64,000 nt of DNA from Alphaproteobacteria bacterium (GTDB lineage: Bacteria > Pseudomonadota > Alphaproteobacteria > Micropepsales > Micropepsaceae). The translations under genes and the position numbers were made by a program. This document shows, one piece after another, positions 19,457 to 40,106 of the stretch. A model generated the notes under the pieces. The model was given only the letters and a program-made list of their open reading frames with translations. It had not been told where the DNA came from and ran no database searches. Within the stretch, counting starts at the first letter, position 1. Each line of letters opens with the position of its first letter. The DNA lies in NCBI GenBank assembly GCA_028871345.1, contig JAGWNK010000005.1:1-64000 (forward strand). Direction: 5' to 3'.

Positions 19457-19464
19457 TCAGACAG
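19457..19464. promoter_or_regulatory. arabinose-locus motif, site 1 (TCAGACAG)
   Basis: GCATTACTCAGACAGAAAC, about 20 bp upstream of the GH29 start. Confidence 0.6.
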
Positions 19465-19484
19465 AAACTCCCGGGACCAGCAAC

Positions 19485-21122
19485 ATGCCTCTTTCACGCC
19501 GACAAATACTGTTGCGCGCCGCGGCGCTGGCCGCGCTGCCCTCGTCCGCCCTGGCGCGCCCGCGCAGGCGCGCCAAAGGGCCGTTCAAGGCGAGCTGGCA
19601 ATCGCTCGCCTCGCAGTATCGGGCGCCGGCGTGGTTCGCCGACGCCAAGTTCGGCATCTGGGCGCACTGGTCGGCGCAATGCGTGCCGGAGATGGGCGAC
19701 TGGTACGCCAGGCGCATGTATATGCAGGGCGACAGCGCCTATGACGACCATCTCAAGCGCTACGGCCATCCTTCCGAAGCCGGTTTCATGGAGATCGACC
19801 ATCTGTGGAAGGCCGAGAACTGGAACCCGGAAGAGCTGCTTTCGCTCTATGAGAAGGCGGGCGCCAAGTATTTCATGGCGCTCGCCAACCACCACGACAA
19901 TTTCGACAACTACCGCTCGCGCCACCATGCCTGGAATTCGCTGCGCGTCGGGCCCAAGCGCGACATCATCGGCACCTGGGAAAAGCTGGTGCGCGAGCGC
20001 GGCCTGCGCTTCGGCGTCAGCAACCACTCTTCCCACGCCTGGCACTGGTTCCAGGTCGCCTACGGCTATGACGCGGTCGGCCCCAAGGCCGGCGTGCGCT
20101 ACGACGCCTACCGCCTCACCAAAGCCGACGGCAAAGGCAAATGGTGGCAGGGGCTCGACCCGCAAGAGCTCTACACCGGACGCAACATGGTGATCCCCGA
20201 CGGCATCAACTCGATCGAGGCGATGAAGCAGTGGCACGACCAGAACGACGGCGTGTGGCACGAGGACATACCGCCCCACAATCCCGCCTTCGCGCGCAAA
20301 TGGTTCCTGCGCTGCAAGGACCTGATCGACAGCTACAAGCCCGACATGATCTATTTCGACGACACGGGCCTGCCGTTCGACCGTTATGGGCTTGAGATCG
20401 CGGCGCATTTCTACAACGCCAGCATGGCATGGCACGGCGCCAACGAAGCCGTGGTCACGGCGAAGAAATTGCCGCCGGCGCACGCGCCGGGCGTCGTCGA
20501 GGACATCGAGCGCGGCCTGGCGTCCGATATCATGGAGAGGCCATGGCAGACCGACACCTGCATCGGCGACTGGCATTACAATCGCGCCGTGTTCGAGGAG
20601 CACCGCTACAAGACGGCCGAGAGCGTCGTTCAGATGCTGTGCGACATCGTGAGCAAGAACGGCAACCTGATGCTGAACATTCCGGTCAAAGGCGACGGCA
20701 CCATCGACAGCGACGAGCGCGCCATCCTGGCCGACCTGGCCCGGTGGACGGCAACCAACGGCGAAGCGATCTATGCGAGCCGCCCCTGGAAGACGTTCGG
20801 CGAAGGCCCCACCAAGGTGCAAAGCGGCATGTTCGGGGAGAGCAACCTGAAGGGCTTCACCGGTCAGGACATCCGCTTCACCCGCAAAGGCGACGTCCTC
20901 TATGCAGCCGTGCTGGGCCAGCCGGCGGCAAACGCGGTGACGATCGCTTCGCTGGCGCAAGGCTCGCACCTCGTCGGCGGCACGATCGAGCGCGTCACGC
21001 TCCTGGGCGCCGGTCCGATTGCCTTCACCCGCGACGCCGCGGGCCTGTCGGCCACCTTGCCGCCGGCGCCCAAAGGTGTCTTCGTTCCGGTCCTCAAGAT
21101 CGAAGGAAACAACCTGGCCTGA
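19485..21122 (+). CDS. GH29-type alpha-L-fucosidase-like exported enzyme (Tat-like leader)
   Basis: MPLSRRQILLRAAALAA leader; AKFGIWAHW, MALANHHDNFDNYRSRHHAWNS, DMIYFDDTGLPF, SKNGNLMLNIPVKGDGTI. Confidence 0.88.
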   Translation: MPLSRRQILLRAAALAALPSSALARPRRRAKGPFKASWQSLASQYRAPAWFADAKFGIWAHWSAQCVPEMGDWYARRMYMQGDSAYDDHLKRYGHPSEAGFMEIDHLWKAENWNPEELLSLYEKAGAKYFMALANHHDNFDNYRSRHHAWNSLRVGPKRDIIGTWEKLVRERGLRFGVSNHSSHAWHWFQVAYGYDAVGPKAGVRYDAYRLTKADGKGKWWQGLDPQELYTGRNMVIPDGINSIEAMKQWHDQNDGVWHEDIPPHNPAFARKWFLRCKDLIDSYKPDMIYFDDTGLPFDRYGLEIAAHFYNASMAWHGANEAVVTAKKLPPAHAPGVVEDIERGLASDIMERPWQTDTCIGDWHYNRAVFEEHRYKTAESVVQMLCDIVSKNGNLMLNIPVKGDGTIDSDERAILADLARWTATNGEAIYASRPWKTFGEGPTKVQSGMFGESNLKGFTGQDIRFTRKGDVLYAAVLGQPAANAVTIASLAQGSHLVGGTIERVTLLGAGPIAFTRDAAGLSATLPPAPKGVFVPVLKIEGNNLA

Positions 21123-21174
21123 CCAGCCCCCAGAGGTCCGGAGGCGGACGGAGAGTTCCAGTTCCCATTTCCAA

Positions 21175-21182
21175 TTGTCTGA
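21175..21182. promoter_or_regulatory. arabinose-locus motif, site 2 (TTGTCTGA)
   Basis: CCAATTGTCTGACTTAATATC upstream of the aldose epimerase. Confidence 0.65.
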
Positions 21183-21229
21183 CTTAATATCGGTGCCATA
21201 ACCGGCGCCGCCAGACGGGAGGATCCTTC

Positions 21230-22387
21230 ATGTACCGCATCGATTTCGTGAAAGCGTGTGTCACCGGGCTATCCCTGGCCGCCCTGATGGGCGCTGCGGC
21301 GCCCGCCTATGCCAAGGACGCCATGAGCCATATTCAGAAGACCGTGTTCGGCCACGCCCCCGATGGCGCCGCCATCGACGCCTACACCCTGACCAACAAG
21401 ACCGGGATGGAAGCCCGCATCATGACCTGGGGCGCCACGCTGGTGTCGCTCAAGACGCCGGACCGCCACGGGCATCTGGCGAACGTGGTGCTCGGCTTCG
21501 ACAACGCGACGCCCTATATCACCGGCGTACCGTTCTACGGCGCCACCATCGGCCGCTTCGCCAACCGCATCGCGGGCGGCACGTTCAAGCTGGACGGCAA
21601 GACCTATCAACTGCCGCGCAACGACGGCACCAACAGCCTGCACGGCGGCACCCAGGGCTTCGACAAGCGGCTGTGGAAGGCCGAACCGTTCGAGACCGCC
21701 GAAGGCCCCGGCGTCAAGCTCACCTATGTCAGCGCCGACGGCGAAGAAGGCTATCCGGGCCAGCTGACCGCGCATGTCAGCTACCAGCTGCGCAACGACG
21801 ACGCCCTGGACATCAAATACGAGGCGACCACCACCAAGCCGACGCCGCTCAACCTGACGAACCACGCCTATTTCAACCTGTCGGGCGACTTCAACAAGCC
21901 GATCCTCGACGAGGTGATCCGCATCGACGCCGACCGGTACACGCCGGTGAACGACAAGCTGATCCCGACGGGCGAACTCGCCCCGGTCGCCGGCACGCCC
22001 TTCGATTTCCGCAAGCCGATGGTGATCGGCGCGCGCATCAACGAGGACAACCAGCAGCTCAAATTCGCCCACGGCTATGACGACAACTGGGTGCTGAACA
22101 AGCCCCATGCCGGCGCCATGACGCTGGCGGCGGTCGTCAGCGACCCCGGCACGGGCCGGTCGATCGAAGTCAAGACCACCGAGCCCGGCATCCAGTTCTA
22201 CACGGGCAACTTCATGGACGGGAAACCCGCCGGCAAGGGCACGGTCTTCCAGCACCGCACCGGATTGACGCTGGAGACCCAGCACTTCCCGGATTCGCCC
22301 AATCAGCCAACGTTCCCCTCGACGATCCTGAAGCCGGGACAGACCTTCCGGTCGCAGACCGTGTACCTCTTCCGCACGGTGAAATAG
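21230..22387 (+). CDS. galM: aldose 1-epimerase, exported
   Basis: Signal peptide; ATIGRFANRIAGGTFKLDGKTYQLPRNDGTNSLHGG, NLTNHAYFNLSG, GIQFYTGNF. Confidence 0.93.
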   Translation: MYRIDFVKACVTGLSLAALMGAAAPAYAKDAMSHIQKTVFGHAPDGAAIDAYTLTNKTGMEARIMTWGATLVSLKTPDRHGHLANVVLGFDNATPYITGVPFYGATIGRFANRIAGGTFKLDGKTYQLPRNDGTNSLHGGTQGFDKRLWKAEPFETAEGPGVKLTYVSADGEEGYPGQLTAHVSYQLRNDDALDIKYEATTTKPTPLNLTNHAYFNLSGDFNKPILDEVIRIDADRYTPVNDKLIPTGELAPVAGTPFDFRKPMVIGARINEDNQQLKFAHGYDDNWVLNKPHAGAMTLAAVVSDPGTGRSIEVKTTEPGIQFYTGNFMDGKPAGKGTVFQHRTGLTLETQHFPDSPNQPTFPSTILKPGQTFRSQTVYLFRTVK

Positions 22388-22402
22388 CGTTTCCCCGAAT
22401 GC

Positions 22403-22428
22403 GGGCGGCGCCGCAGCGCCGCCCTTTT
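22403..22428 (+). terminator. intrinsic terminator after galM
   Basis: GGGCGGCGC-CGCA-GCGCCGCCC-TTTT. Confidence 0.8.
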
Positions 22429-22460
22429 ATTCTGCCCGTGCGCCGCTTCGTTCGCACACC

Positions 22461-22490: not shown

Positions 22491-22512
22491 CGCATTGGAG
22501 CGGACCTGGCCT

Positions 22513-24099
22513 TTACCGCAGGCTGAGGACCACCACCGACTTGGGCGGCAGGGTGACGCTGAGACTGTTGCCCGAGAGGCGGGCGCTGTCGAAGGCCACG
22601 GGATGCACGGCGTCGGGGTTCTCGAAGGTGTTGTGGGCGTCCATCGTGTCGCCCGTCAGCAGCCGGCCCTTCACCTGCCCTTCATGGGCGCCGGCGATCA
22701 CCGCCGAGACCTGCGCCGGACGGTGCGGATCGAGGTTGGCAAGTCCCACGACGATCGAGCCGTCGCTGGCGCGCGCCGCCGAGGCGCTCACCTGCGGCAC
22801 CGACCATTTGCCGTACTTGTAGGTGCCGGTCTTGAGGTCGAGCGGCAGCGAGGTCGCCTCCTGGAACGGCTGGTACATGTCGTAGACCCAGTAGGTCGGC
22901 GTCTTCAGCATCTTCGGCCCGTCGGTGAGAATCATCGCCTGCAGCACGTTGACCGTCTGGGCGATGGCGGTCATCCGCACGCGGTCGGCGTATTTGTGGA
23001 AGATGTTGAAGTTGGCCGCCGCCAGCACCGCGTCGCGGATGGTGTTCTGCTGCACCAGGAATCCCGGATTGGAGCCGGGTTCGGGCTGGTACCAGGAGCC
23101 CCACTCGTCGATGTAGAGGCCGACCTTCTTGTGCGGGCCGGGTCCCTGCCGATGCAAGGCCTCGTACTTGTCCATGATGGCGATGTGCTGCCGGATGAAG
23201 CCGTCCATCTTGAGCGTGTTGGCCAGCATGTTGATCCAGCCCGCTTCGCCGAAGCCGGTGGCGGTGTCCTTGTTCTCCCACTGCGGCCCCAGGATCGTGT
23301 AGTAGTGGAAATCGATGGCATCCAGGCCGCCGCGCGCGTTCTTCATCAGCGATTCGGTGAAGTCCGTCGTGGTGTCGTGGTCGCCGCTGGCGATGACCTG
23401 CGGACGCGCCTCGGGCTTGGTGCGCACGAAGGTGGCGTACTGCTTGAAGAGGTCGGTGTAGTAGGCCGCGGTCATGCTGCCGCCGCAGCCCCAGGTCTCG
23501 TTGCCGACGCCGAGCATCGCCAGCTTCCACGGCTTGTCGCGGCCGTTGGCCTTGCGCAACCGCGCCAGCGTCGTGTCCTGGTCGGAGGTCATGTACTCGA
23601 TCCAGTCCATGGCTTCCTGCACCGAGCCCGAACCGACATTGAGGCTGACATAGGCGTCGGCCCCGATGAGATCGAGGAACTCGAAATATTCATGGGTGCC
23701 GAAGGCGTTGGTCTCGGGCACGCCGCCCCAATTGTGGTTGACGCGGACGGGGCGCTGGGCCTGCGGACCGATGCCGTCGCGCCAGTGGTACTCGTCGGCG
23801 AAGCAGCCGCCCGGCCAGCGCACGACGGGGACGTGCAGATCCTTGAGCGCCGCGATCACGTCGTTGCGGAATCCGTCGGTGTTGGGGATCGGCGAATCCT
23901 TGCCGACATAGATGCCGCCATAGATGCCGCTGCCCAGATGTTCGGAGAACTGGCCGTAGACATCCTTGTTGATGACGGCACCCGGGCGGTCGGCGTGGAT
24001 AGTCAGGGTCGTGGCGGCGGGCTGCGGCGCGGGCGCCGCGGCCGCCGGCAGGGCGGCCGACAGCAGGGCCACAAGGCCGAGCAGTTTGAGATTCTTCAT
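22513..24099 (-). CDS. abfA: GH51 alpha-N-arabinofuranosidase, exported
   Basis: VVRWPGGCFADEYHWRDGIGP, LGVGNETWGCGG (acid/base), VGLYIDEWGSWY (nucleophile). Confidence 0.92.
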   Translation of the reverse strand: MKNLKLLGLVALLSAALPAAAAPAPQPAATTLTIHADRPGAVINKDVYGQFSEHLGSGIYGGIYVGKDSPIPNTDGFRNDVIAALKDLHVPVVRWPGGCFADEYHWRDGIGPQAQRPVRVNHNWGGVPETNAFGTHEYFEFLDLIGADAYVSLNVGSGSVQEAMDWIEYMTSDQDTTLARLRKANGRDKPWKLAMLGVGNETWGCGGSMTAAYYTDLFKQYATFVRTKPEARPQVIASGDHDTTTDFTESLMKNARGGLDAIDFHYYTILGPQWENKDTATGFGEAGWINMLANTLKMDGFIRQHIAIMDKYEALHRQGPGPHKKVGLYIDEWGSWYQPEPGSNPGFLVQQNTIRDAVLAAANFNIFHKYADRVRMTAIAQTVNVLQAMILTDGPKMLKTPTYWVYDMYQPFQEATSLPLDLKTGTYKYGKWSVPQVSASAARASDGSIVVGLANLDPHRPAQVSAVIAGAHEGQVKGRLLTGDTMDAHNTFENPDAVHPVAFDSARLSGNSLSVTLPPKSVVVLSLR

Positions 24100-24137: not shown

Positions 24138-24145
24138 TCAGACAA
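24138..24145. promoter_or_regulatory. arabinose-locus motif, site 3 (TCAGACAA)
   Basis: TGTTATCAGACAAATCAGAG, 38 bp upstream of the GH51 start. Confidence 0.6.
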
Positions 24146-24146: not shown

Positions 24147-25199
24147 TCAGAGTATAGCCGTGGGCCAGCCGTCCTGCGACCAGACGAGCGGGGCGATGCG
24201 CAAGGTCGGCGTGCCGTCGCGCCGCGCGTCATAGGCGTGATAGACGATGTAGTCCTGCCCGCCGTCGCGCAGGATGGAGGCCCCGCCCGGCCCGCGCCAG
24301 CGCGACGAGGGATCATTCGCAAGCACGACCGTGCCGTTGCCGTCGCTCATGGCATAGCGGTTCTTGTCGCCATAAGGACCGGTGACCCGGGCACAGCGCC
24401 CCACCACCGTGTAGTAGTTCGAATCGGCGCCGCGGCAGCAGAAGTCGAACGAGCAGAACAGGTAGTAGTAGCCGCCGTGCTCGACGATGTAGGAGGCCTC
24501 GATGGCATCGAGGCCCGGATCGTCGGTCGGCCGCTTGGCGAGGGAGTAGATCGTCGGGCGATCCATCGCCGGCTTGCCCGTCGCCGGATCGAGCTGGATC
24601 AGCTTGAGCCCGCCCCAGAAGCTGCCGAAGGCGAGCCAGTGCTGGCCTTCGCGATCGACCACGTGGTTGGGATCGATGCAGTTGTAATCGTCGCCGGGCT
24701 TGGATTCGAACACCAGACCCTGGTCCACCCATTTGAATTGCGGCGACTTGGGGTCGAGCGTCGCGTTGGTGAGAAGGCCGATCACCGAGCGGTTCTTCCC
24801 GAACGTCGAGCAGGCGTAATAGAGAAGGTAGCGGCCGCCGGCGAACGAGATGTCGGGAGCCCAGACGCCTTCGGCGCCCGACACGCGGTCGCTCACCCAT
24901 TGGGGCAGATCGTCCATCACGTAGCCTCCCTTCTCCCAAGACAGCAGGTCCTTGGAGAAGCGCCAGGGAATCTGTTGTCCGCCGCCGCCCGGCTGGTTGG
25001 TCGAGAAGACGTAATATGTGTCGCCTTCGCGGATGGCGCAGGGATCGTGCACCGGCGAGAGGCTGCCGGAGAGCCGGCTGTTCATCGACGCCGTCTCGGC
25101 GCGCCCCGGCGAGGCGGGAATGGCCGCGGCCATGCCCGCGGCGCAGGCGCCCTGGAGCGCCCTGCGGCGGCTCCACGGGCGCATGGTCCATTGCGTCAT
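24147..25199 (-). CDS. GH43 arabinan endo-1,5-alpha-L-arabinosidase-like
   Basis: SPVHDPCAIREGDTYYVFST, GVWAPDISFAGGRYLLYYACS, DAIEASYIVEHGGYYYLFCSFDFCCRG. Confidence 0.9.
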   Translation of the reverse strand: MTQWTMRPWSRRRALQGACAAGMAAAIPASPGRAETASMNSRLSGSLSPVHDPCAIREGDTYYVFSTNQPGGGGQQIPWRFSKDLLSWEKGGYVMDDLPQWVSDRVSGAEGVWAPDISFAGGRYLLYYACSTFGKNRSVIGLLTNATLDPKSPQFKWVDQGLVFESKPGDDYNCIDPNHVVDREGQHWLAFGSFWGGLKLIQLDPATGKPAMDRPTIYSLAKRPTDDPGLDAIEASYIVEHGGYYYLFCSFDFCCRGADSNYYTVVGRCARVTGPYGDKNRYAMSDGNGTVVLANDPSSRWRGPGGASILRDGGQDYIVYHAYDARRDGTPTLRIAPLVWSQDGWPTAIL

Positions 25200-25209: not shown

Positions 25210-26328
25210 TCAGACGATAGCGGTGGGCCAGCCGTCCTTCGACCAGACGAGCGGCGCGATCCGCAGATACGGTTCGCCCACGTGGTTCTTCTTTCTCTGT
25301 TCGTCGTTCATCTGGAACACGCCGTCGGGCTTGTAATAGGCGTGATAGACGATGTAGTCCCGCCCGTCCTTGTCGCGCAGGATGGCGCAGTGCCCCGGGC
25401 CGCGCCAATGCTCCTTCTCCTCCTGGTCGGCCTTCAGGATGACGGAGCCGTAGCCGTCGGTCAGCTTGCGCCCCTGCTTGTCGACATAGGGTCCCGTGAC
25501 CGAGCGCGACCGCCCCATCGCCGTGTAATAGGTGCTGAAGATCCCCTTGCAGCAATAGTCGTAAGAGGCGAAGAAATAGTACCAGCCGTTGCGCTCGAAG
25601 ATGTAGTTGGCCTCGATGGTGTCGAGACCGCCTTGCGGCGTCGGGCGCGCGGCAAGGTTGATCAGCTTGTGATCTCCTGGCACGGGCTTGCCGGTCCTGG
25701 GATCGAGCCTGAGCATCATGATGCCGCCCCAGAAGCTGCCGAAGGCCAGCCAGCGTTCGCCCTGCGGCGTGACGACATGGGTGGGGTCGATGCAGTTGTA
25801 GTTGTCGCCAGGCTTGGATTCGAAGACGAGCCCCTTGTCCTCCCATTTGTACTTGGGCGACTTGGGATCGAGCGTGGCGTTGGTGGCCAGCCCGATGATC
25901 GAGCGGTTCGAGCCGAAGCTCGACAGGGCGTAATAGAGACAGAAGCGGCCGTCGATGAACGACAGGTCCGGCGCCCAGATGCCGGGCGTCTCGGGGATCA
26001 TCTTCAGCGCCCAGTCCGGGATGGCGGGGAATGCGTTGCCGATCGACTGCCACGTTGCGAGGTCCTTGGACGTGCGCATCGGAATCTGGCCCTGGCGCTT
26101 CTGGTCCATGGTCGTGCAGCAGACGTAATAGGTGTCGCCGTCGCGAATGATGCAGGGATCGTGGACGGGCGTGATGTCGCCGTTCATGCGGTCGTTGATC
26201 GATTTGGGCGGCTGCGCCCAGGCGGCGACGGACGGCAGCGAGACGGCCGCGAGCCCGATGAGCGAGCCGTGCAGGGCGCCGCGGCGGCTGATGGCTTCTT
26301 CAAGGATCTTCTGCATCTTGGACCCCAT
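25210..26328 (-). CDS. GH43 arabinan endo-1,5-alpha-L-arabinosidase-like (second copy)
   Basis: TPVHDPCIIRDGDTYYVCCT, GIWAPDLSFIDGRFCLYYALSSFG, DTIEANYIFERNGWYYFFASYDYCCKG. Confidence 0.9.
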   Translation of the reverse strand: MGSKMQKILEEAISRRGALHGSLIGLAAVSLPSVAAWAQPPKSINDRMNGDITPVHDPCIIRDGDTYYVCCTTMDQKRQGQIPMRTSKDLATWQSIGNAFPAIPDWALKMIPETPGIWAPDLSFIDGRFCLYYALSSFGSNRSIIGLATNATLDPKSPKYKWEDKGLVFESKPGDNYNCIDPTHVVTPQGERWLAFGSFWGGIMMLRLDPRTGKPVPGDHKLINLAARPTPQGGLDTIEANYIFERNGWYYFFASYDYCCKGIFSTYYTAMGRSRSVTGPYVDKQGRKLTDGYGSVILKADQEEKEHWRGPGHCAILRDKDGRDYIVYHAYYKPDGVFQMNDEQRKKNHVGEPYLRIAPLVWSKDGWPTAIV

Positions 26329-26445
26329 TCCAGGGAAACGGGCGGCAGCAGATCCAAGCGATCCGCTGCCGTCCATCCGGAGAGAACTACGTCATGCTAA
26401 ACCACCGGGAGCGGTTGAAGGCAGCCGCCCCCGGATTCGTCAAAC

Positions 26446-29142
26446 TCACAACCGATAGCGCAGGCCCAGCGAGATCGTCTGGTCGAAGCGCCGCGTGTCG
26501 CGCGGATAGACCGCACACAATGCCCCGGCTCCAAAACAATCCTGGAAGTAGCTGTTCAGCAGGTTGGTGGCGTCGAGGGTGAAGGTCAGGCTGTCGGTGT
26601 ACCTGTAGCTGGCCGACAGATCGAGCCAGGGCTGGGCCTTGGCATAGATCGTTCCCGGATTCTGGCCGCCGCCGGGCGCCGGGCCTTCATTGAAGCCGGA
26701 ACGCCAGTTGTAGGCGGCGCGGAAGGAGAACGGTCCCTTCTCGTAGATGCCGACGACGTTGTAGGACCAGTGGGAGATGTTCTGGAAGGCGCCGCCGACA
26801 TAGGTGGCGTTGGTCTGCAGGCCCAGCCCGCTCCACAAGCCCGGCAGGAAGTCGAAGAACTGCGTATAGTCGGCCTCGAAACCGTCGATGTGGCCGGCCG
26901 GCGAGTTCGATGGACGGCTGATCTGGTAGACGATGCCGCCGATCGTCTCGGCCACCACCGAACCGCCGATGTAACCGTCGACGTCGCGATGGAAGTAGGT
27001 GCCGCTCAGCAGGTTCGACGGACCGAAGTAGTACTCCAGCGAAACGTCGATGTTGTTGGACTTCTCGGGCGTCAGGTCGGGATTGCCGCTCGAGCCGGAA
27101 CCCAGGAGCGTCGCCGTCGAAGCCGACAGGTTCAGACCCGGATTGAGCTGGGCGAAGGTCGGACGCGTCACCGTGCGGCTCAGCGCCAGGCGGAAGAACA
27201 GGTCATCCTGGAGCATGAAGCGCATGTTGAGGCTGGGCATCCAGTCCACCGTATCCTTCGAACTCGCCGTCGGCGTGTAGGTGAAGGAATAGGTGTTGGG
27301 CGGCGGCGTCGGATTGGTCTGGGTGATGACGAGCGTGTTGCCGCGCATGTCGGCCTGGGTGTCGACGACCCGCAGGCCGATATTGCCGTCGACCGGCGTG
27401 CCGCCCAGCATGAAGGCGTACTTCGCCATGAAGTAGCCGGCATAGCTCTGTTCGCGGTCGTCGAAGGAGTTCGACGGGTCCGCGGCTGGTGCCGCCGCCG
27501 GCTGTCCGAACAGCGTCCGCACCAGGCCGACATTCTTGACGAGCCAGTTGGGGTCGGCGTCCATCCACTTGGTGATGCCGAACTTGCCGTCGAACTGGCT
27601 GCCGCTGGTGATGTGGAACGAGCCGGGATAATCGGCGAGCGTCACGCCAGGCCCCGGATTGCCGTGATAGCCGCCGCAAGCCACCGAGGCGTCGCGGGCG
27701 AGCTGCTGGGCATAGAACGGGCTCGAAGGATCGGGGAAACTGTCGCAATCGAGGCCGCCCGCGTTGTCGGCGCGGTTCCGGGCGAACCGGTTCGCATAGC
27801 GGAAGCCGACGTCGAACGACCTGATCAGGCTGTCTGCGCCGACGTCGTAGTGCAGATCGGCGCGCCAGTCGACTTCGTTGCCCGTCTGCTTGGTCCACTG
27901 GTCGTACCACTGCCGCCAGACCATGTTGGCGGGGTCGGTGACCGAAGCCAGCGGCACGTTCATGTAGGGCGTGCCGGTGTTCTTGTAGTTGAAGTCCGCC
28001 ACATAAGCCGGAGGCGGGCCCGGGAAATAGTGCGTATCGAGAATGTAGCCGGTCTGCGCGAAGCGGCTGTCGGTGTAGTCGACTTCGGTGGAGAGCGTGA
28101 CGTTCTCGCCCGTCCAGGTGGCGCCGCTGGCCAACTGGTAAGTGTCGGTCTTGGCGCGGAAGGACTGATTGCTGGTCAGATCATACCAGCCGGCATTCAC
28201 GGTCTTCACTTCATTGGTGCCGGGGAACACGGTTGCGGTCGCGGGATCCGCGCCGATCCACGGCAGGCCGACGAAGAAGTCGACCGAGTTCGGGTTGCGG
28301 TAGCGCGTGTAGAACGCCTCGGCGAAGACTTCGACGTTCTGGTTCGGGCGCCACTGCATGGAAAAATCAAGAGCGCCGCGCTCGCGGGCCCCAGGAATGG
28401 ACTGGGCGCCTTCCGTCAGCGGAATCCACGACGGATTGGGGGCGCCCGGAATTCCGAACAGCGGGATCACCGAGATGTAGTTGTCGAGGATCTCTTCCTT
28501 GTAATGGTCCTTGGAATAGGACACGTCGAGCAGGACGCCGATCTCGCCGATGCCCGTCTGGAAGCGGTCGCTGATAAGGACGCTGGCCAAGGGATCGACA
28601 TGACCCGACAGGGAACTGTATGTGCCGCGCGCCGTGCCGGCGATCTCGAGTCCGTCGAAGTCGAAGGGGCGATGCAGGCGCACGTCGATCAAGCCGGCGA
28701 TGCCGCCTTCCAGATCCTCGGCCGTGGCGGATTTGTGGACGTCGACGCGCGCCAAAAGCTCGGCAGGGACGTCCTGCAAGGTCATGAAGCGGCCGGTGGA
28801 CGTGAAGATCTCGCGCCCGTTCATCAGGGTCGCGATGTCGGGCAGGCCGCGGATCAGGAGCTGGTTCGCCTCGGCGGCGTTGCGGCTGATCTGCACGCCC
28901 GTGACGTGCTGCAAGGCCTCGATGACGTTGTTGTCGGGCAGCTTGCCGATGTCTTCGGCCACGATCGAATCCATGATCTGGCCCGAATTCTTCTTCACCT
29001 CCTGCGCCGACTGCAAACTGGCGCGGACGCCGGTGACGACAACGGTTTCCATCGTCTGATCCGACTGCGCCAGCGCCGGGCCGGACGCCAAAATCAGCGC
29101 CACGACGGACGCCGAACCGCTAAGCGCCTTCAAGCATTTCAT
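26446..29142 (-). CDS. TonB-dependent receptor
   Basis: Signal peptide; METVVVTGVRASLQSAQEVKKNSGQIMDSIVAEDIGKLPDNNVIEALQHVTGVQISR plug; C-terminal QTISLGLRYRL. Confidence 0.94.
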   Translation of the reverse strand: MKCLKALSGSASVVALILASGPALAQSDQTMETVVVTGVRASLQSAQEVKKNSGQIMDSIVAEDIGKLPDNNVIEALQHVTGVQISRNAAEANQLLIRGLPDIATLMNGREIFTSTGRFMTLQDVPAELLARVDVHKSATAEDLEGGIAGLIDVRLHRPFDFDGLEIAGTARGTYSSLSGHVDPLASVLISDRFQTGIGEIGVLLDVSYSKDHYKEEILDNYISVIPLFGIPGAPNPSWIPLTEGAQSIPGARERGALDFSMQWRPNQNVEVFAEAFYTRYRNPNSVDFFVGLPWIGADPATATVFPGTNEVKTVNAGWYDLTSNQSFRAKTDTYQLASGATWTGENVTLSTEVDYTDSRFAQTGYILDTHYFPGPPPAYVADFNYKNTGTPYMNVPLASVTDPANMVWRQWYDQWTKQTGNEVDWRADLHYDVGADSLIRSFDVGFRYANRFARNRADNAGGLDCDSFPDPSSPFYAQQLARDASVACGGYHGNPGPGVTLADYPGSFHITSGSQFDGKFGITKWMDADPNWLVKNVGLVRTLFGQPAAAPAADPSNSFDDREQSYAGYFMAKYAFMLGGTPVDGNIGLRVVDTQADMRGNTLVITQTNPTPPPNTYSFTYTPTASSKDTVDWMPSLNMRFMLQDDLFFRLALSRTVTRPTFAQLNPGLNLSASTATLLGSGSSGNPDLTPEKSNNIDVSLEYYFGPSNLLSGTYFHRDVDGYIGGSVVAETIGGIVYQISRPSNSPAGHIDGFEADYTQFFDFLPGLWSGLGLQTNATYVGGAFQNISHWSYNVVGIYEKGPFSFRAAYNWRSGFNEGPAPGGGQNPGTIYAKAQPWLDLSASYRYTDSLTFTLDATNLLNSYFQDCFGAGALCAVYPRDTRRFDQTISLGLRYRL

Positions 29143-29217
29143 GAAGTCCCTCCCTCGCATCATCCGTCGTGGCAACCCCTGCGCATCTCGGATGAGGTCA
29201 AATTATGTTGGTATTAC

Positions 29218-29225
29218 TCAGACAA
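29218..29225. promoter_or_regulatory. arabinose-locus motif, site 4 (TCAGACAA)
   Basis: GGTATTACTCAGACAATTAAAC, 75 bp upstream of the TonB receptor start. Confidence 0.65.
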
Positions 29226-29337: not shown

Positions 29338-29345
29338 TCAGACAA
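29338..29345. promoter_or_regulatory. arabinose-locus motif, site 5 (TCAGACAA)
   Basis: CGCACTACTCAGACAAGAATT, upstream of the GntR-type gene. Confidence 0.65.
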
Positions 29346-30326: not shown

Positions 30327-30334
30327 TTGTCTGA
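30327..30334. promoter_or_regulatory. arabinose-locus motif, site 6 (TTGTCTGA)
   Basis: GGGCAATTGTCTGATTTTTGG, 63 bp upstream of araA. Confidence 0.65.
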
Positions 30335-30397: not shown

Positions 30398-31909
30398 ATG
30401 CCCATGACCCCGCTGAAGAATTTCGAAGTCTGGTTCGTGACCGGCAGCCAGCACCTCTACGGACCCGAGACCCTCAAGCGCGTCGCCGCGGATTCGCAGG
30501 AGATCGCCAAAGGCCTCGGCGCCGCCCTGCCCGTGCAGGTGATCTTCAAGCCCGTGCTGGTATCGCCCGAATCCGTGAGCGAACTGGCGCAGGAGGCCAA
30601 CACGGCCAAATCCTGCATCGGCCTGGTCATCTGGTGCCACACCTTCTCGCCGTCGAAGATGTGGATCAACGGGCTGAAGCAGCTGCGCAAGCCGGTGGCC
30701 CATCTGCACACGCAGTACAATCGCGACATTCCGTGGTCGTCCATCGACATGGACTTCATGAATTTGAACCAGGCGGCGCACGGCGACCGCGAGCACGGCT
30801 TCATCTGGAGCCGGCTGCGCCTGAACCGCAAGGTGATCGTCGGCCACTGGCAGGAAGCTTCAGTCCAGAACAAGCTCGGCGCCTGGGCGCGCGCCGCGGC
30901 GGCCTGGAACGACTGGCAGGACGCCAGATTCGCCCGCTTCGGCGACAACATGCGCGAAGTCGCGGTCACCGAAGGCGACAAGGTCTCGGCCCAGTTCAAG
31001 TTCGGTTATGCGGTCAACGGCTACGGCGTGGGCGATCTCGTCGCCCGCATCAATGCGGTCTCGGACAAGGAGACCGACGCCCAGGTGCGGGAATACGAGG
31101 ACCTCTACGACGTGACGGGCGATCTGCGCCAGGGCGGCGGCCGCCACCGCTTCGTGCGCGAGCAGGCCCGCATCGAAACCGGCATGCGCGCCTTCCTCAA
31201 GGAAGGCGGCTTCAAGGGTTTCACCACGACCTTCGAGGACCTGCACGGGCTCGAGCAGCTGCCCGGTCTCGCCGTGCAGCGGCTGATGGCGGAAGGCTAC
31301 GGCTTCGGCGCCGAAGGCGACTGGAAGACCTGCGCGCTGTTGCGCGCCGTCAAGGTGATGACCCACGGACTGAAGGGCGGCGCCTCGTTCATGGAGGACT
31401 ACACCTACCACCTCGATCCGGCCGGCAAATGCGTGCTGGGCGCCCACATGCTGGAGGTCTGCCCCACCATCGCCGCCGGCAAGCCCAAGCTCGAGGTCCA
31501 TCCGCTCGGCATCGGCGGCAAGATGGATCCGGCGCGCCTGGTGTTCAACGCCGCCACCGGGCGGGCGCTCAACGCCACGCTGATCGACCTCGGCAACCGC
31601 TTCCGCATGCTGGTGAACGAGATCGAGGTCATCGCCCCGCCGCAGCCCATGCCGAAACTGCCGGTGGCGCAGGCCGTGTGGAAGCCGAAGCCGAGCTTCG
31701 AGGAATCCTGTGCGGCGTGGATCTACGCCGGCGGCGCCCATCACGCGGCGTTCAGCCAGGCGGCGACCAGCGAGATGATGGAAGACTTCGCCGCCATGGC
31801 CGACGTCGAATTCCTCCTCATCAACGACCAGACGAAGGTGGACGAGTTCCGCAAGGAGCTGCGCTTCAACGAAGTCTATTACGCATTGAATCGGGGCTGG
31901 GCCATCTGA
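30398..31909 (+). CDS. araA: L-arabinose isomerase
   Basis: [57 protein letters not shown]. Confidence 0.96.
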
Positions 31910-31940: not shown

Positions 31941-33614
31941 ATGAGCCAATACACGATCGGTCTCGATTACGGGACCAATTCGGTCCGTGCGCTACTGGTC
32001 GATGCGGCCGACGGGCGCGAAGCGGCCGCCGCGATCTGGGGCTATGAGCACGGCCACCAGGGCGTCGTCTTGGGGCGCGATCCCAACCTCGCGCGCCAGC
32101 ATCCCGGCGACTACCTGAAAGGCGCGGAGATCACGATCCGCGAGGTTCTGGCGCAAGCCAAGAAGACGGTGCCCGGGTTCTCGCCGGACGACGTCAAGGG
32201 CATCGGCGTGGACACCACCGGCTCGACGCCGATGCCGGTCGATGCCGACGGCCTGCCGCTGGCCTTCGACGAGCGCTTCGCCGACAACCCCGCGGCGCTG
32301 GCCTGGCTGTGGAAGGACCATACCGGCTACGCCGAAGCGGGCGAGATCACGGCGCTGGCCAGGAAGATGCGCCCGCAATACCTCGCCAAATGCGGCGGCG
32401 TCTATTCGAGCGAATGGTTCTTCTCGAAGATCCTGCACTGCCTGCGCACGGCGCCGGACGTGTTCGCCGCCGCCTATACCTGGGTGGAACTCGCCGACTT
32501 CGTGCCGGGCGCGCTGTCGGGGACCTTGGCGCCGGGCAAGTTCACGGCGGGCATCTGCGCCGCCGGCCACAAGGCGATGTACAACGCGGCCTGGGGCGGC
32601 TACCCCGACGAAGAGTTTCTTTCGGCGCTCGATCCCAAGCTGGGCGGATTGCGCGAACGCCTGACCAAACGCGTGCGCTCCATCGACAGCCGGGCGGGAA
32701 CCCTGACCGAAGAATGGGCCGCCAAGACCGGATTGCCGGCCGGCGTGCCCGTGGCGGTCGGGGCCTTCGACGCGCATCTGGGCGCCATCGGCGCGGGCAT
32801 CGGCCCCGGCACCCTGGTCAAGATCATGGGCACTTCGACCTGCGACATCACCGTGAAGGGGAACACGGAAGCGCTGGCGGACGTTCCGGGCCTGTGCGGA
32901 ATTGTCGATGGCAGCGTGCTGCCCGGTTTCTTCGGCCTCGAAGCGGGCCAATCGGCGGTAGGAGACATCTTCAATTGGTTCGTCGACTACATCCGCCCCG
33001 GCGGCAAGGAACCTCTGTCGCACGAGCAGCTGCAGCGCGAGGCGGCGGCGCTGAAAGCCGGCGAGTCCGGCCTGGTGGCGCTCGACTGGAACAACGGCAA
33101 CCGCACCATCCTGGTGGACCAGCGCCTCACCGGCCTGCTCGTCGGCCAGACGCTCTACACCACGCCGGCCGAGATCTACCGCGCGCTGATCGAAGCCACG
33201 GCGTATGGGGCGCTCGCCATCATCAACCGCTTCGAGGAATACGGCGTCGAAATCGCCGAGATCGTCAACTGCGGCGGCATCGCGGAGAAGAGCCCGCTCA
33301 CCATGCAGATCTATGCCGACGTCACGGGACGGCCGATGAAGGTGTCGCGCTCCGCCCAGACGCCGGCCCTGGGCGCCGCCATCGCCGCGGCGGTGGCCGC
33401 CGGCGTGCACAAGAACTTTGCCGCGGCCCAGAAGGCGATGACGGGACTCAAGGCGCAGGTCTACGCGCCCGACGCGGAGGCCCATGCGGTGTACCGCAAT
33501 CTCTACGAGATCTACCGCACGCTGCACGACGCCTTCGGCACGCCCAGTTGGCAGGGCAACCTCTACGACGTGATGAAGCGGCTGATCGACATCCGCGCCC
33601 GCGTGCGCACATAG
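31941..33614 (+). CDS. araB: ribulokinase
   Basis: YTIGLDYGTNSVRALLVD, GVDTTGSTPMPVD, GTSTCDI, EATAYGALAI; FGGY family. Confidence 0.94.
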   Translation: MSQYTIGLDYGTNSVRALLVDAADGREAAAAIWGYEHGHQGVVLGRDPNLARQHPGDYLKGAEITIREVLAQAKKTVPGFSPDDVKGIGVDTTGSTPMPVDADGLPLAFDERFADNPAALAWLWKDHTGYAEAGEITALARKMRPQYLAKCGGVYSSEWFFSKILHCLRTAPDVFAAAYTWVELADFVPGALSGTLAPGKFTAGICAAGHKAMYNAAWGGYPDEEFLSALDPKLGGLRERLTKRVRSIDSRAGTLTEEWAAKTGLPAGVPVAVGAFDAHLGAIGAGIGPGTLVKIMGTSTCDITVKGNTEALADVPGLCGIVDGSVLPGFFGLEAGQSAVGDIFNWFVDYIRPGGKEPLSHEQLQREAAALKAGESGLVALDWNNGNRTILVDQRLTGLLVGQTLYTTPAEIYRALIEATAYGALAIINRFEEYGVEIAEIVNCGGIAEKSPLTMQIYADVTGRPMKVSRSAQTPALGAAIAAAVAAGVHKNFAAAQKAMTGLKAQVYAPDAEAHAVYRNLYEIYRTLHDAFGTPSWQGNLYDVMKRLIDIRARVRT

Positions 33615-33622
33615 GACCCGCG

Positions 33623-34315
33623 ATGCTGGAAAAACTGAAGCAGCAGGTGTGGGAAGCGAACCTCGAGCTGGTGCGCGAGGGTCTCGTCATCCAGACCTTC
33701 GGCAACGTCTCGGGCATCGATCGCGACAAGGGCATCGTCGTCATCAAGCCTTCGGGCGTGGCCTATGACGCCATGAAGCCCGAGCACATGGTCTGCGTGA
33801 CGCTCGACAGCTGCGAGACGGTCGAGGGCGGTCTGCGCCCCAGTTCGGACACGGCGACCCATCTCGTGCTCTATCGCGCTTTCGCGGCCATCGGCGGCAT
33901 CACCCACACCCACAGCCTGCACGCCACGGCCTGGGCGCAGGCCAGGAAGAGCCTGCCGGCCCTCGGCACGACGCAAGCCGATACCTGGCACGGCGCGGTG
34001 CCCTGCACGCGGCTGATGCGCGACGGCGAGATCAAGGCCGACTACGAAGCCAACACCGGCCATGTCATCGTCGAGACCTTCGCCGACAGCGATCCGATGC
34101 ACCGCCCCGCGGTGCTGGTGGCGAGCCACGGCCCCTTCACCTGGGGCAGGGACGCCAAGGACGCCGTGCACAACGCCGTGATCCTGGAATACGTGGCGCG
34201 GCTGGCCAGCGAGACGCTGCGCATCGCGCCGGACACCGAGCCCATGCAGGCGACGCTGCTCGACAAGCACTTCCTGCGCAAGCACGGACCCAAGGCGTAT
34301 TACGGACAGAAATAA
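33623..34315 (+). CDS. araD: L-ribulose-5-phosphate 4-epimerase
   Basis: TFGNVSGIDRDKGIVVIKPSGV, THTHSLHATAWAQA, HGPFTWG. Confidence 0.95.
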   Translation: MLEKLKQQVWEANLELVREGLVIQTFGNVSGIDRDKGIVVIKPSGVAYDAMKPEHMVCVTLDSCETVEGGLRPSSDTATHLVLYRAFAAIGGITHTHSLHATAWAQARKSLPALGTTQADTWHGAVPCTRLMRDGEIKADYEANTGHVIVETFADSDPMHRPAVLVASHGPFTWGRDAKDAVHNAVILEYVARLASETLRIAPDTEPMQATLLDKHFLRKHGPKAYYGQK

Positions 34316-34339: not shown

Positions 34340-36073
34340 ATGAGTATCAGCGCCGCGGCCGCCAGACCGATCGTTACCGCATCGCCGATCGATATCGCGA
34401 TCGTGGTGATCTATTTCATCTTCGTCATCGGCATCGGCATCTACCTGAAGAAATACACCAAGACCGGCGAAGACTTCTTCATGGCCGGCCGCGAGATGAC
34501 GGCTTGGATCGCCGGGCTGAGCTTCCTGTCGGCCAATCTCGGCGCCCTGGAGCTTTTGGGCTGGGCCGGATCGGCCTACGAATACGGCATCCTGGCCGTG
34601 CACTGGTACTGGATCGGCGCCATCCCCGCCATGATCCTGCTCGGTCTGGTGATGATGCCTTTCTACTACGCATCGCGCACGCATTCGGTGCCGGGCTATC
34701 TGCAGCTGCGCTACGGCCGCGCCGCCAGCGGACTTTCCGCCATCAGCTTCGCCGTGATGACCATCCTGATGAGCGGCGTGAACATCTTCGCCATGGCCGC
34801 CGTGATGCAGGTGGTGCTCGGCTGGAACATGAACTTCAGCATCTGGGTGTCCTCGGCCAGCATGGGCGCCTATGTCGTGCTGGCGGGGCTGCTGTCGGCG
34901 ATCTTCAACGAAGTGCTGCAGTTCGTGCTGATCTGGCTGGGTTCGCTCTTGATCCCCATCCTGGGTCTGTTCCAGGCGGGCGGCTGGAGCGGACTGAAGC
35001 AGCACATCATGACCAATCTGACGCATTTCGGGGTCGCCAATCCCGACAGCTACATGCATGTCTGGACCACGCTGGGCAATTTCAAAGACAACCCGATGGG
35101 CATCAACTGGATCGGCATCGTCTTCGGCCTGGGTGCCGTCATTTCGATGGGATACTGGACGACCGACTTTCTCGTGGTGCAGCGCGTGATGTCGGCGCGC
35201 GACCTGCGTTCCGCCAAGATGGCGCCCCTGATCGGCGCGGCGTTCAAGATGTTCGTTCCGGTCATCGTCATCCTGCCCGGCCTCCTGGGCCTGGGACTGC
35301 TCGACGTCCACCTGGTGTCGCAGACCGCGGTCAGCGCCGCGGCGGCGCACGGGGCGACGCTCTACAGCTACAACGACGTCCTGCCCCTGATGCTGGCCAA
35401 GTATTGCGGGCCGGCGCTTCTCGGCCTGGGCATCACCGCCCTGATCGCAGGCTTCATGTCGGGCATGGCCGGCAACGTCACCGCCTTCGCGACGGTTTGG
35501 ACGCACGACATCTACAAGCCGATGATGAATCCCAACGCCTCGGACGGCCACTATCTCGCCATGGGGCGCTGGAGCACGGTGCTGGGCATCCTCGTCAGCA
35601 TCGGCACCGCCTATTTCGTCATGCAGTTCGCCAGCATCATGGACTACGTGCAGGCGCTGTTCAGCTTCTTCATCGCACCTCTGTTCGGCACGGTGATCCT
35701 GGGCATGCTGTGGAAGCGCACCACGCCGGCCGGCGGATTCTGGGGGCTGCTGGCGGGGACCGTCGGCTCGATCGCCATGTATTTCTGGGTCGATCTGCAG
35801 CCCTCGGCGCTGCGCTACATCGCCTTGTCGCCCGACGCCATGCCGATGGCCGCGGACATGTTCCGCGCGCTGTGGAGCTTCGTCATCGTGGTGCTCGTGA
35901 CCGTGGGCGTCACCCTGGTGACGCCCCCCAAGCCCCAGAGCGAGCTGAAAGGCCTGGTGATGGGATGCACCGACATCCCGTCGGAAGGCAGCTATCCGCT
36001 GATCCACAGGCCGGCGTTCTGGGCCGTGGTGATCTTCGCCGTCTTCGCCGCACTCAACTGGTATTTCCGCTGA
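34340..36073 (+). CDS. SSS-family sodium:sugar symporter
   Basis: GEDFFMAGREMTAWIAGLSFLSANLGALELLGWAGSAYEYG; polytopic. Confidence 0.9.
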   Translation: MSISAAAARPIVTASPIDIAIVVIYFIFVIGIGIYLKKYTKTGEDFFMAGREMTAWIAGLSFLSANLGALELLGWAGSAYEYGILAVHWYWIGAIPAMILLGLVMMPFYYASRTHSVPGYLQLRYGRAASGLSAISFAVMTILMSGVNIFAMAAVMQVVLGWNMNFSIWVSSASMGAYVVLAGLLSAIFNEVLQFVLIWLGSLLIPILGLFQAGGWSGLKQHIMTNLTHFGVANPDSYMHVWTTLGNFKDNPMGINWIGIVFGLGAVISMGYWTTDFLVVQRVMSARDLRSAKMAPLIGAAFKMFVPVIVILPGLLGLGLLDVHLVSQTAVSAAAAHGATLYSYNDVLPLMLAKYCGPALLGLGITALIAGFMSGMAGNVTAFATVWTHDIYKPMMNPNASDGHYLAMGRWSTVLGILVSIGTAYFVMQFASIMDYVQALFSFFIAPLFGTVILGMLWKRTTPAGGFWGLLAGTVGSIAMYFWVDLQPSALRYIALSPDAMPMAADMFRALWSFVIVVLVTVGVTLVTPPKPQSELKGLVMGCTDIPSEGSYPLIHRPAFWAVVIFAVFAALNWYFR

Positions 36074-36399: not shown

Positions 36400-38220
36400 A
36401 TGAACAGCAACACGGTCAACAAGGCCGCCGGCGATATCGCCGGATTCTTCAACGCACCGCCGCCGGGCCACGGCCCGGTGTTCGATGCGACCGACTGGAT
36501 CGTGGTGGCGGTGTTCATCGCCGTCATGCTGGCGGTCGTGGTGGCCTCGATGCTGAAGAAGGCCGAGTCCGGCAAGGATTACTTCCTGTCGGGACGCGAT
36601 TCGGGATGGCTGCAGATCGGCTCGTCGATCTTCTCCTCCAACATCGGTTCCGAACATCTCGTCGGCCTGGCCGGCGCCGGCTTCGCCACCGGCATGGCGA
36701 TGGCGCACTGGGAGATGCAGGGCTGGATCATCCTCGCCCTGGGCTGGGTCTTCGTGCCGCTGTACGATCGCATGAAGATCTTCACCATGCCGGAGTTCCT
36801 CGAGCTGCGCTTCAGCCGCGGCTCGCGCAACGTGCTCAGCCTGCTCACCATGGCGAGCCTGGTGCTGACCAAGATCGCGGCCACCATCTACGCCGGCGAC
36901 GTGGTGGTGCGCACGCTGCTCGGCATCAACAGCGTCAGCATCTTCGGCTTCGAGATCGACGTGTTCTGGGCCATCGCGCTCGGCCTCGCCTTCACCACCG
37001 GCCTCTACACCGTGCTGGGCGGGCTGCGCGTCATCATGTACACCTCGGTGCTGCAGGCGCCGGTCCTGATCTTCGGCTCCCTCTGCATCCTCTATTCCGG
37101 CCTCAGAGTGCTGGGCCACGGCGACCTTCTCGCCGGCTGGCACGCCACCGTCGTGGCGGCTGGCGCCAACATCCACCTGATCCGCTCGTTCCACGATCCG
37201 GAATGGTCGTGGGCGGCGGTGCTGCCGAGCTCGATGATCATCGGCTTCTGGTACTGGTGCACCGACCAGTACATCGTCCAGCGCGTTCTCGCCGGGCGCA
37301 ACCAGCAGCAGTCGCGGCGCGGCGCCATCCTGGCGGCGTACTTCAAGCTGACGCCGGTCTTCATCTTCCTGGTGCCGGGCATGGTGGCCTTTGCGCTGAC
37401 GCACGACCCGGCGGCCAACTTCACCACCAACGGCGACGCCGCCTATACCTCGCTGGTGGCCCAGATCCTGCCACACGGCCTGCGCGGCATGGTGGCCTGC
37501 GCCATGATCGTGGCGCTGATGGCCTCGCTGGGCTCGAAGTTCAACGCCTCTGCCACGCTGTTCACCATGGACTTCTTCCGCGAATGGTACCCCGACGCGT
37601 CGGGGCGCACGGAAGTCGTGGTGGGGCGCATCGCCACCGCGGTGATCGTCGGCATCGGCATCTGCTGGGTGCTGGTGATCAAGAGCCTGAGCTCGAACCT
37701 CTACACCTACCTGCAAAGCGTGCAGAGCTACCTGTCGCCCGCCATCGTGGTGCTGTTCGTGCTGGGCGTGTTCTGGAAACGGGCCAACGCCAAGGGAGCC
37801 TTGATCGCCTTCGTCGTCGGCGTCATCGGCGGCTTCGCGCGGCTGGCGGCCGACATCTATATGCGCGCCGAGGACACGCTGGTGCTGGGGCTGAAGCGGC
37901 AGCTCTTCAACCACCAGATCACCCAGGCCCAGTTCGACGCGGCGATCGCGCCCATCCAGGCGAAGTACGGCTTCATCTTCACCATGTGGGACATCAACTG
38001 GCTCTACTATTGCCAGATCCTGCTCGTGGTCACGGCCGTGCTGATGGTCGGCATCAGCCTGATGACCAAGGCGCCCCATCCCAGGACAGTCAAGTACACC
38101 TGGTACGGCGCCACGCCCGAGGAGAAGGCGGCCACGCGCGCCAGCTGGAACGCGGTGGACGTCATCCTCAGCGCCATCGTCGTCGCCGCGGTGATCGTCT
38201 TCTACTACAGCTTCTGGTGA
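36400..38220 (+). CDS. SSS-family sodium:sugar symporter (second)
   Basis: GKDYFLSGRDSGWLQIGSSIFSSNIGSEHLVGLAGAGFATGMA. Confidence 0.92.
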   Translation: MNSNTVNKAAGDIAGFFNAPPPGHGPVFDATDWIVVAVFIAVMLAVVVASMLKKAESGKDYFLSGRDSGWLQIGSSIFSSNIGSEHLVGLAGAGFATGMAMAHWEMQGWIILALGWVFVPLYDRMKIFTMPEFLELRFSRGSRNVLSLLTMASLVLTKIAATIYAGDVVVRTLLGINSVSIFGFEIDVFWAIALGLAFTTGLYTVLGGLRVIMYTSVLQAPVLIFGSLCILYSGLRVLGHGDLLAGWHATVVAAGANIHLIRSFHDPEWSWAAVLPSSMIIGFWYWCTDQYIVQRVLAGRNQQQSRRGAILAAYFKLTPVFIFLVPGMVAFALTHDPAANFTTNGDAAYTSLVAQILPHGLRGMVACAMIVALMASLGSKFNASATLFTMDFFREWYPDASGRTEVVVGRIATAVIVGIGICWVLVIKSLSSNLYTYLQSVQSYLSPAIVVLFVLGVFWKRANAKGALIAFVVGVIGGFARLAADIYMRAEDTLVLGLKRQLFNHQITQAQFDAAIAPIQAKYGFIFTMWDINWLYYCQILLVVTAVLMVGISLMTKAPHPRTVKYTWYGATPEEKAATRASWNAVDVILSAIVVAAVIVFYYSFW

Positions 38221-38262
38221 TCGAGAACGGCAAGGCGGCGAACCCTCCGCCGCCGTGTCCTT

Positions 38263-40080
38263 TCAGCCGACGGTCGCCTGATAGAGCCGCGTCGATTCCT
38301 GCGCCACGGCAAAGAAGGGCTTGAAGGTCTGCGCCCCTTCCGGCGTCGTCACCCGCCATTCGGGGCCGGACGATGCCTGCTTCACCGCCATCAGCTCGTC
38401 GCGATGGAACGGCAGGAAGCGCGGGCCGACGGCGAACAGCGCCAGCGGCCCCTGCACCACCGCCAGGTGCCCCGGGTGCTTGTCGTCCACCGCCTCGAGC
38501 CGCAGGGGCGCCTCGAGGGTCAGCGCGATGCGGTCGCCGTTGCGCCAGGTGCGCCGGATGGCGAAGAATTTTCCGGGCTGCGGCCCGTCGGCGAAGCGCC
38601 GGCCGTTGACCGCGATGCGCGTGCCTGCCCCCGCCCAGGCCGGAATGCGCAGCATCACCGCGAAAGTCTCCTCGTGCGGCGTGGCGACGGCGATCTCGAT
38701 GTCGGGCGCCAGCGGATATTGCGTCGTCTGGCGGAGCGTGACGGTGCGCCCGCCCCGCTTCCAGGTGAACTGCGACGGCGCGTAGAGATTGATCGCCACC
38801 GCATCGGGCCGCGTCAGATAGGCCGAGATGCCGTAATCGGCGACCACCTGGCCGATGGTGCCCGAGCAGCAGGTGCAGTGGTACTCGTGATAGAACTTGG
38901 CGCCGATATTGTTGTAGTCGGAATAGTAGAATGCGGTGCCGTCGGACTTCATCGGCAAGGCGCCCAGGATCGCGTTGTAGAGCACGCGCTCCATCGAATC
39001 CCCGAAGCGGCTTTCGCCGGTCACCGACATCAGGTAGCGCGCCGCCTTGAAGTGGCCGTATGAGCCGCACGGCGTCTCGAAGCTCGCGTGCGTCGTGTCG
39101 AGGCTGTCGCCCAGCGCTCCCGAGCCGGGCGCGACGAACGCTTCGTTGGGACCCCAGCCGCCGGTGGCGAAGCTTTGCGCCACGATGAGGTCGAAGCCGT
39201 TGGCGGCCGCGCCCAGATGCATGGCGCTGCCGTCGGTGATGTAGGCCTGCATGGCGGAGCTCAGGGCGTTCATGTGGCTGTAGGCATGCTTGCCCGGCAG
39301 GACATTGTCCCCGCGCGCCAGCGGAGCGAAATAAGCCTGATCGAGCAGAAAGCGCCGCGCCAGGGCGCGGTAGCGGTCGCCCGCGCCGCGCTTCCACGCC
39401 AGATAAAGGTTCTCCGGCAAGGTGTAGGACTCGTCCCAGCCGAACGCCACGTTGGGATGGGGCCGCGCCGCCATCTCGGGCCGCGTCAGCGCCTTCTCGG
39501 GCAGATGGGGAAGTGCCGCATCGGTGGCGCGGTTGAGAACGTCGAGCGCATTCGAAACACCAGCGAAGCTGTAGGCGTCGAGCAGGCCGATGTTGATCTT
39601 GTCGAAGGTGTAGGCCGGCAATGCGTAGTCGTCGTAGAACTTCGCCGTGATGGTCGGTGCGAAGCCGGCCACGAGGCGCGCCACCTTCTCGGCCGTGGCG
39701 CGGTCGCCCGTGACGGCATGTGCGCGGGACAAGGCGGAGACGTATTGCCCGAAACAATGGCCGGGAATGAAGCCGCGGAAGTCGGCCGGGATGTTGTACT
39801 TGCGGACCCAGTTGTACCAGCCTCCGAGATCGGGCCCGGGCGCCGCCAGGCCGGCGCGCTGGCGGAACGGCTTGAGCAGCGCATCCTCGTCCATCGCCAT
39901 CAAGGTGTCGTGCTGGCGGCGGAACTGTTCGAGCATCGGTCCGTCGAGCAGCGTCACATCGCCGTAAGAGGCGGGCGTCAACGCCACGGGCGCGTGCGGC
40001 GCGCCTGCGACGGGATCGGCCATGAGGCCGGCAGCCAGCGTGGAGCCGGCCAATTGCAGGACCGTTCGACGCGTTTCCAT
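38263..40080 (-). CDS. GH127 beta-L-arabinofuranosidase-like (DUF1680)
   Basis: Leader METRRTVLQLAGSTLAAG; EYHCTCCSGTIGQVVADYG Cys motif; GH127 C-terminal region. Confidence 0.87.
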   Translation of the reverse strand: METRRTVLQLAGSTLAAGLMADPVAGAPHAPVALTPASYGDVTLLDGPMLEQFRRQHDTLMAMDEDALLKPFRQRAGLAAPGPDLGGWYNWVRKYNIPADFRGFIPGHCFGQYVSALSRAHAVTGDRATAEKVARLVAGFAPTITAKFYDDYALPAYTFDKINIGLLDAYSFAGVSNALDVLNRATDAALPHLPEKALTRPEMAARPHPNVAFGWDESYTLPENLYLAWKRGAGDRYRALARRFLLDQAYFAPLARGDNVLPGKHAYSHMNALSSAMQAYITDGSAMHLGAAANGFDLIVAQSFATGGWGPNEAFVAPGSGALGDSLDTTHASFETPCGSYGHFKAARYLMSVTGESRFGDSMERVLYNAILGALPMKSDGTAFYYSDYNNIGAKFYHEYHCTCCSGTIGQVVADYGISAYLTRPDAVAINLYAPSQFTWKRGGRTVTLRQTTQYPLAPDIEIAVATPHEETFAVMLRIPAWAGAGTRIAVNGRRFADGPQPGKFFAIRRTWRNGDRIALTLEAPLRLEAVDDKHPGHLAVVQGPLALFAVGPRFLPFHRDELMAVKQASSGPEWRVTTPEGAQTFKPFFAVAQESTRLYQATVG

Positions 40081-40098
40081 GGCGTGTCTCCGCGTTGT

Positions 40099-40106
40099 TT
40101 GTCTGA
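40099..40106. promoter_or_regulatory. arabinose-locus motif, site 7 (TTGTCTGA)
   Basis: GTTTGTCTGACATATATAG, 18 bp upstream of the GH127 start. Confidence 0.65.

Follow-up and report, generated by a model that had tools for sequence, protein, structure and literature searches.

The window, that is, the whole 64-kb stretch of DNA analysed here, carries an arabinose locus. Its left part includes, on the plus strand, a GH29 alpha-L-fucosidase-like gene (19485–21122) and galM, encoding an aldose 1-epimerase (21230–22387), and, on the minus strand, genes for a GH51-type arabinofuranosidase (22513–24099), two GH43 enzymes (24147–25199 and 25210–26376) and a TonB-dependent receptor (TBDR, 26446–29163). 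On the plus strand there follow the gene of a 255-aa regulator (29484–30251), araA for L-arabinose isomerase (30398–31909), araB for ribulokinase (31941–33614), an araD-type class II aldolase/epimerase gene (33617–34315) and two sodium:solute symporter genes (34340–36073 and 36400–38220). A GH127 beta-L-arabinofuranosidase-like gene (38263–40080, minus strand) completes the locus. The identities given to araA, araB and araD in a preliminary description of this DNA were borne out by profile matches (NF002795, 805 bits with a cut-off of 622; TIGR01234, above cut-off; and PF00596, respectively). For GH51 the only model was NF051901, at 242.8 bits and below its cut-off of 625.

The regulator matched a GntR winged helix-turn-helix (HTH) at the N-terminus (PF00392, 44.4 bits, cut-off 27) and an FCD/FadR ligand domain at the C-terminus (PF07729, 77.5 bits, cut-off 24.3), and is thus predicted to be a FadR-subfamily GntR regulator, the class first given to it; we propose that it is a repressor. 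Its best sequence match among solved structures was E. coli DgoR (7c7e, E 3e-28), whose metal triad D146/H150/H195 and Arg102 are conserved as D161, H165, H209 and R117. The recognition helix reads S-R-T-A-Y-R-E and HTH position 28 is a Val; orthologs carry Val or Ile there, with few exceptions. Arg at this position correlates with G in the operator (PMC4494728). Val instead of Arg would therefore suit TTGT rather than TGGT.

A recurrent word upstream of the locus operons

The 8-base word TTGTCTGA occurs seven times in the window against 0.85 expected, a number reached in none of 100 shuffles. Six exact copies lie at promoters of the locus, at positions 21175, 24138, 29218, 29338, 30327 and 40099. 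The seventh, at 53303, had been overlooked in the preliminary description; it lies within a long, well-biased reading frame of the minus strand, hence coding, and looks accidental. The copy that had been counted as seventh instead, before GH29, is CTGTCTGA (19457–19464, minus strand) and carries one mismatch. In the window, one-mismatch matches are about as frequent as chance predicts (19 in all, 22.8 expected), so that the case for this candidate operator comes down to a longer 12-base match, ATTACTCAGACA, common to the GH29 and 29218 sites. A gap of 4 bp separates this site from the start of an SBF-like transporter gene (18383–19453), which is divergent from GH29 and may be under the same candidate operator.

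The predicted operators stand before galM (TTGTCTGACTTAAT, 21175–21182, plus strand), GH51 (24138–24145, minus strand), the TBDR operon (TTGTCTGAGTAAT, 29218–29225, minus strand), araA (TTGTCTGATTTTTG, 30327–30334, plus strand) and GH127 (TTGTCTGACATA, 40099–40106, plus strand and thus inverted relative to the gene, whose start codon was picked below the operator). A second one in the TBDR/GntR divergent region (29338–29345, minus strand) may serve autoregulation, the TBDR operon or both. The operons behind the motif are accordingly GH29, galM, GH51, TBDR-GH43-GH43, the GntR gene, araA-araB-araD-symporters and GH127. Distances to the start codon (GH29 -28, galM -55, GH51 -46, TBDR -62 and -182, GntR gene -146, araA -71, GH127 -26) are about those first reported, within some 140 bp.

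The probability of six copies in 18.9 kb is about 1e-8 for one interval and, once the number of intervals is corrected for, about 2e-6. Across the whole 3.9-Mb genome, a pattern search returned 30 copies of TTGTCTGA and 26 of the reversed control. The concentration is therefore a property of the arabinose locus, and the proposal that the motif might be equally frequent before unrelated genes, raised earlier as an argument against a regulon, gave a result in favour of one.

Conservation among congeneric genomes and relation to the regulator

Orthologs of the regulator (about 62–79% identity) were found in 14 other congeneric genomes; in our search, the nearest named relative of the genus was a Rhizomicrobium MAG. 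Where TTGTCTGA is present in these genomes, it precedes araA at -66 to -71, galM, the TBDR gene at -42 to -53, GH51 at about -53 when this gene is transcribed from a promoter of its own, and GH127, inverted, at -29 to -33. Seven of 10 other loci have an exact galM site, and the TBDR site is kept in four of four other genomes; the GH51 site is kept in G016, G021 and G052, where the gene has a separate promoter, and is missing where GH51 comes after the TBDR operon. The inverted arrangement at GH127 recurs in three other genomes. In G016 and G052, the araA motif is still kept with araA and the regulator on separate contigs. Only mismatched forms occur at the araA and galM promoters of G017 and G020 (one mismatch at the G017 araA site).

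When 8-mers were ranked in the upstream regions of 50 operon-leading genes of the other genomes, TTGTCTGA came first (29 of 50), and the ten words ranked next below all overlap it. In the upstream regions of 24 operon-internal genes (araB, GH43, symporter) it was never present. Since araA is practically absent from our sample of the class (at E <= 1e-100, one of 385 Alphaproteobacteria, the window's own genome), the araA loci of the phylum sample served as control: araA was found at the same threshold in 16 other genomes, and TTGTCTGA at none of these 16 loci. The motif is conserved at orthologous promoters, where its lack had been named as evidence against a regulon. A clustering due to shared ancestry or composition, devoid of regulatory meaning, might be suspected as the compared genomes are congeneric. 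However, the araA and galM promoters that hold the motif show no variation in its columns, against an average of 0.47–0.65 in flanking columns, the reversed control is flat and the word is absent upstream of operon-internal genes; we give this explanation almost no credit.

We also considered that TTGTCTGA could be a promoter element, the -35 box of a sigma factor of this lineage, instead of an operator. In the GH51 promoters of G016, G021 and G052, TTGTCT stands 17 bp before TATGAA or TATGAC, and conservation there could partly reflect promoter function. Nevertheless, the word shows no genome-wide enrichment, araA promoters lack the 17-bp spacing and the number of copies follows the regulator group (see below). 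The word moreover stands in the opposite orientation to GH127 in four genomes, and to GH29 as well. Because of the inverted copies we rejected the promoter element as a full account, and judge it improbable overall.

The number of copies was compared with the regulators present. The extended form WTTGTCTGABWWW averaged 6.2 per genome where an ortholog of at least about 62% identity is present (15 genomes), 4.4 in the seven genomes with 49–61% homologs and 0.62 in the 47 others, the reversed control being flat at 0.36–0.73 (Mann–Whitney P ~8e-10, uncorrected for relatedness). The count tracks the regulator and its close paralogs alike, as would be expected of an operator used by this FadR-type group, within which the tree has weak backbone support.

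This raises the question of which group member uses the sites. The word is also found upstream of, or close to, paralogs of 42–56% identity: it stands before the gene of a 52% paralog, near 41–45% paralogs beside TBDR/GH43 genes, and in genomes holding only 49–56% homologs. The recognition-helix residues of these proteins are nearly identical, and in G024, a MAG 92% complete, the word stands before araA with no regulator ortholog found. The word could then be a subfamily operator, which a paralog such as C46:37507 binds too or instead, rather than one private to the product of the 29484 gene. On the other hand, the arabinose-locus sites cluster around this gene and its orthologs, an ortholog is present in 12 of 13 araA genomes, and the C46 paralog has a single site, next to itself, and a Glu at HTH position 28. 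Sharing is thus a serious possibility, though one we hold to be the lesser. The earlier proposal that the regulator controls the locus through this operator accordingly keeps its support from conserved promoters and from copy number, whereas its sole use of the operator does not follow.

Several other occurrences were recorded. In the window's genome (G000), C46:37507 (52% identical) has TTTGTCTGACCAA ~140 bp upstream (C46:37367-37374; L164:10368-10375) and adjoins a LytTR/histidine-kinase pair and a TonB receptor gene. In the TBDR promoters of loci L151 and L158 the main site is preceded 25 bp upstream by a near-copy, TTTGTCTGC; the two may form a tandem operator. Further copies in G017, G020, G061, G064 and G068 (L227–L249) precede GH39, GH54, GH3, GH31, GH127, GH51, TonB-receptor and transketolase genes. 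G043 and G056 (L217–L226), which lack araA and have only 51–53% homologs, show 7–13 motif copies near genes for esterases, CBM35-like and other secreted proteins, possibly a sister regulon.

Form of the predicted operator and the pathway beneath it

The 41 curated sites were chosen by TTGTCTGA, which is hence fixed among them, the right arm being free. This arm differs between promoters: ATTTT at araA (exact word followed by T's in all 12 curated sites), A[CT][AT]TA at galM, AGT[AT]AT at TBDR and ACAT or ACAA at GH127. A partial fit to the T-N-G-T-N3-A-C-N-A operator had been claimed; the left half, TTGT, is present, but only one of the 41 sites fits the full palindrome. Operators of the FadR subfamily are typically TKGT-N3-ACMA palindromes, with NanR and BioR as exceptions; given these exceptions, the misfit does not exclude the regulator from the subfamily. 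We therefore describe the predicted operator as asymmetric, TTGTCTGA with a promoter-specific right arm. The invariant half would be TTGTC with the central TGA, and the right half would be degenerate and differ characteristically between promoters; judging from the sequence, the likeliest reason is an overlap with elements of the respective promoter.

Distant orthologs (about 53–62% identity) provided 78 loci, almost all from sphingomonads. A related word, TATGTCGGAGTAAT, lies upstream of the sphingomonad orthologs in arabinan clusters, and ATGTCGGA upstream of the regulator in 59 of the 78 loci, mostly as AATATGTCGGAGTAAT or AATATGTCGGAGTAAA; AATATGTCGGAGTAAT matches TTTGTCTGAGTAAT at 12 of 14 positions (~1e-4 by chance, 40 registers). 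TKGT-N3-ACMA and TTGTNTGA were hardly ever found when searched for upstream of the sphingomonad genes; a de novo word list gave ATGTCGGAGTAA instead. The 78 loci contain GH51 (60), GH43 (50), galM (64), a Gfo/Idh oxidoreductase (62) and GguC/AraD1 (64), from which we infer arabinan use with an oxidative L-arabinose route. In G049 and G066, which lack araA, the operon behind the motif consists of aldehyde dehydrogenase and GguC genes, followed in G049 by one for a Gfo/Idh protein. Among 69 congeneric genomes, araA (13) and GguC (16), taken as a marker of the oxidative route, never occur together (3.0 expected, P = 0.02, uncorrected for relatedness).

An already resident regulator seems to have gained control of the isomerase pathway, araABD being presumably of lateral origin. 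A regulatory capture could account for this, and we consider the chances about even: a FadR-type arabinose regulator of older alphaproteobacterial origin would, together with its asymmetric operator, have taken over laterally acquired araABD in part of the genus, its relatives controlling the oxidative route in sphingomonads and in G049/G066. The old route would have been lost, the operators kept or re-formed on the new operon, and the right arms set by the promoter they overlap. This would be a case where regulator and operator type stay constant while the catabolic pathway beneath is swapped, and such a swap narrows the inducer to something common to both routes.

Proposed regulation and known systems

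Taken together, the positions and conservation of the sites, their co-occurrence with the regulator and its domain content lead us to propose, with a probability of about 0.8, that the FadR-subfamily protein encoded at 29484–30251 uses the copies of TTGTCTGA as operators, most likely as a repressor of the locus promoters and of its own promoter that is released by an arabinose-derived ligand. A dimer would repress TBDR-GH43, GH51, galM, araABD-symporter, GH127, probably GH29 and its own promoter by occupying core promoter elements, and would leave when the ligand binds the FCD domain, a mechanism proposed by analogy with FadR-subfamily repressors. Elsewhere in the genus the word is also found before GH43/TBDR genes, and sequence evidence suggests a regulon wider than the locus, for arabinose and hemicellulose. 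As for the inducer, a DgoR-type FCD pocket would otherwise suggest a sugar acid. The relatives, however, serve two pathways whose only early compound in common is L-arabinose, which is therefore likelier than ribulose or ribulose-5-phosphate; L-arabinose is our best guess, on roughly equal odds.

Among the papers searched, none described this regulon. The locus offers a concrete pairing of regulator and operator, open to testing, for the use of arabinan by sphingomonads and by a soil lineage that has been little studied, and an operator common to paralogs makes cross-talk directly testable.

Among known systems, B. subtilis AraR is also a regulator of an arabinose/arabinan regulon with a GntR-type winged HTH, but its C-terminal domain is of the GalR/LacI type, where the product of the 29484 gene has FCD. 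Halomonas AraR2 is a predicted GntR regulator of L-arabinonate/L-arabinose genes (PMC5507952); it serves an oxidative pathway, and the likeness considered here is that of family and sugar genes. E. coli DgoR, a FadR-subfamily regulator responding to D-galactonate, shares the TTGT half-operator, the metal triad and Arg102, and its operator IR1 contains TTGTAGTACAA (PMC12288454). In contrast, DgoR controls D-galactonate genes through two inverted repeats and its sugar-contacting loop aligns poorly; the locus studied here holds araABD and arabinan hydrolases instead of D-galactonate catabolism. The nearest experimental support for the word comes from LhgR of P. putida W619, a GntR regulator responding to L-2-hydroxyglutarate, for which a DNase I footprint was obtained on TTGTCTGACAA (PMC8206213). 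This operator contains TTGTCTGA, and the comparison made here concerns the operator: LhgR has another effector and target, and its operator a palindromic right arm that is missing from most sites described here.
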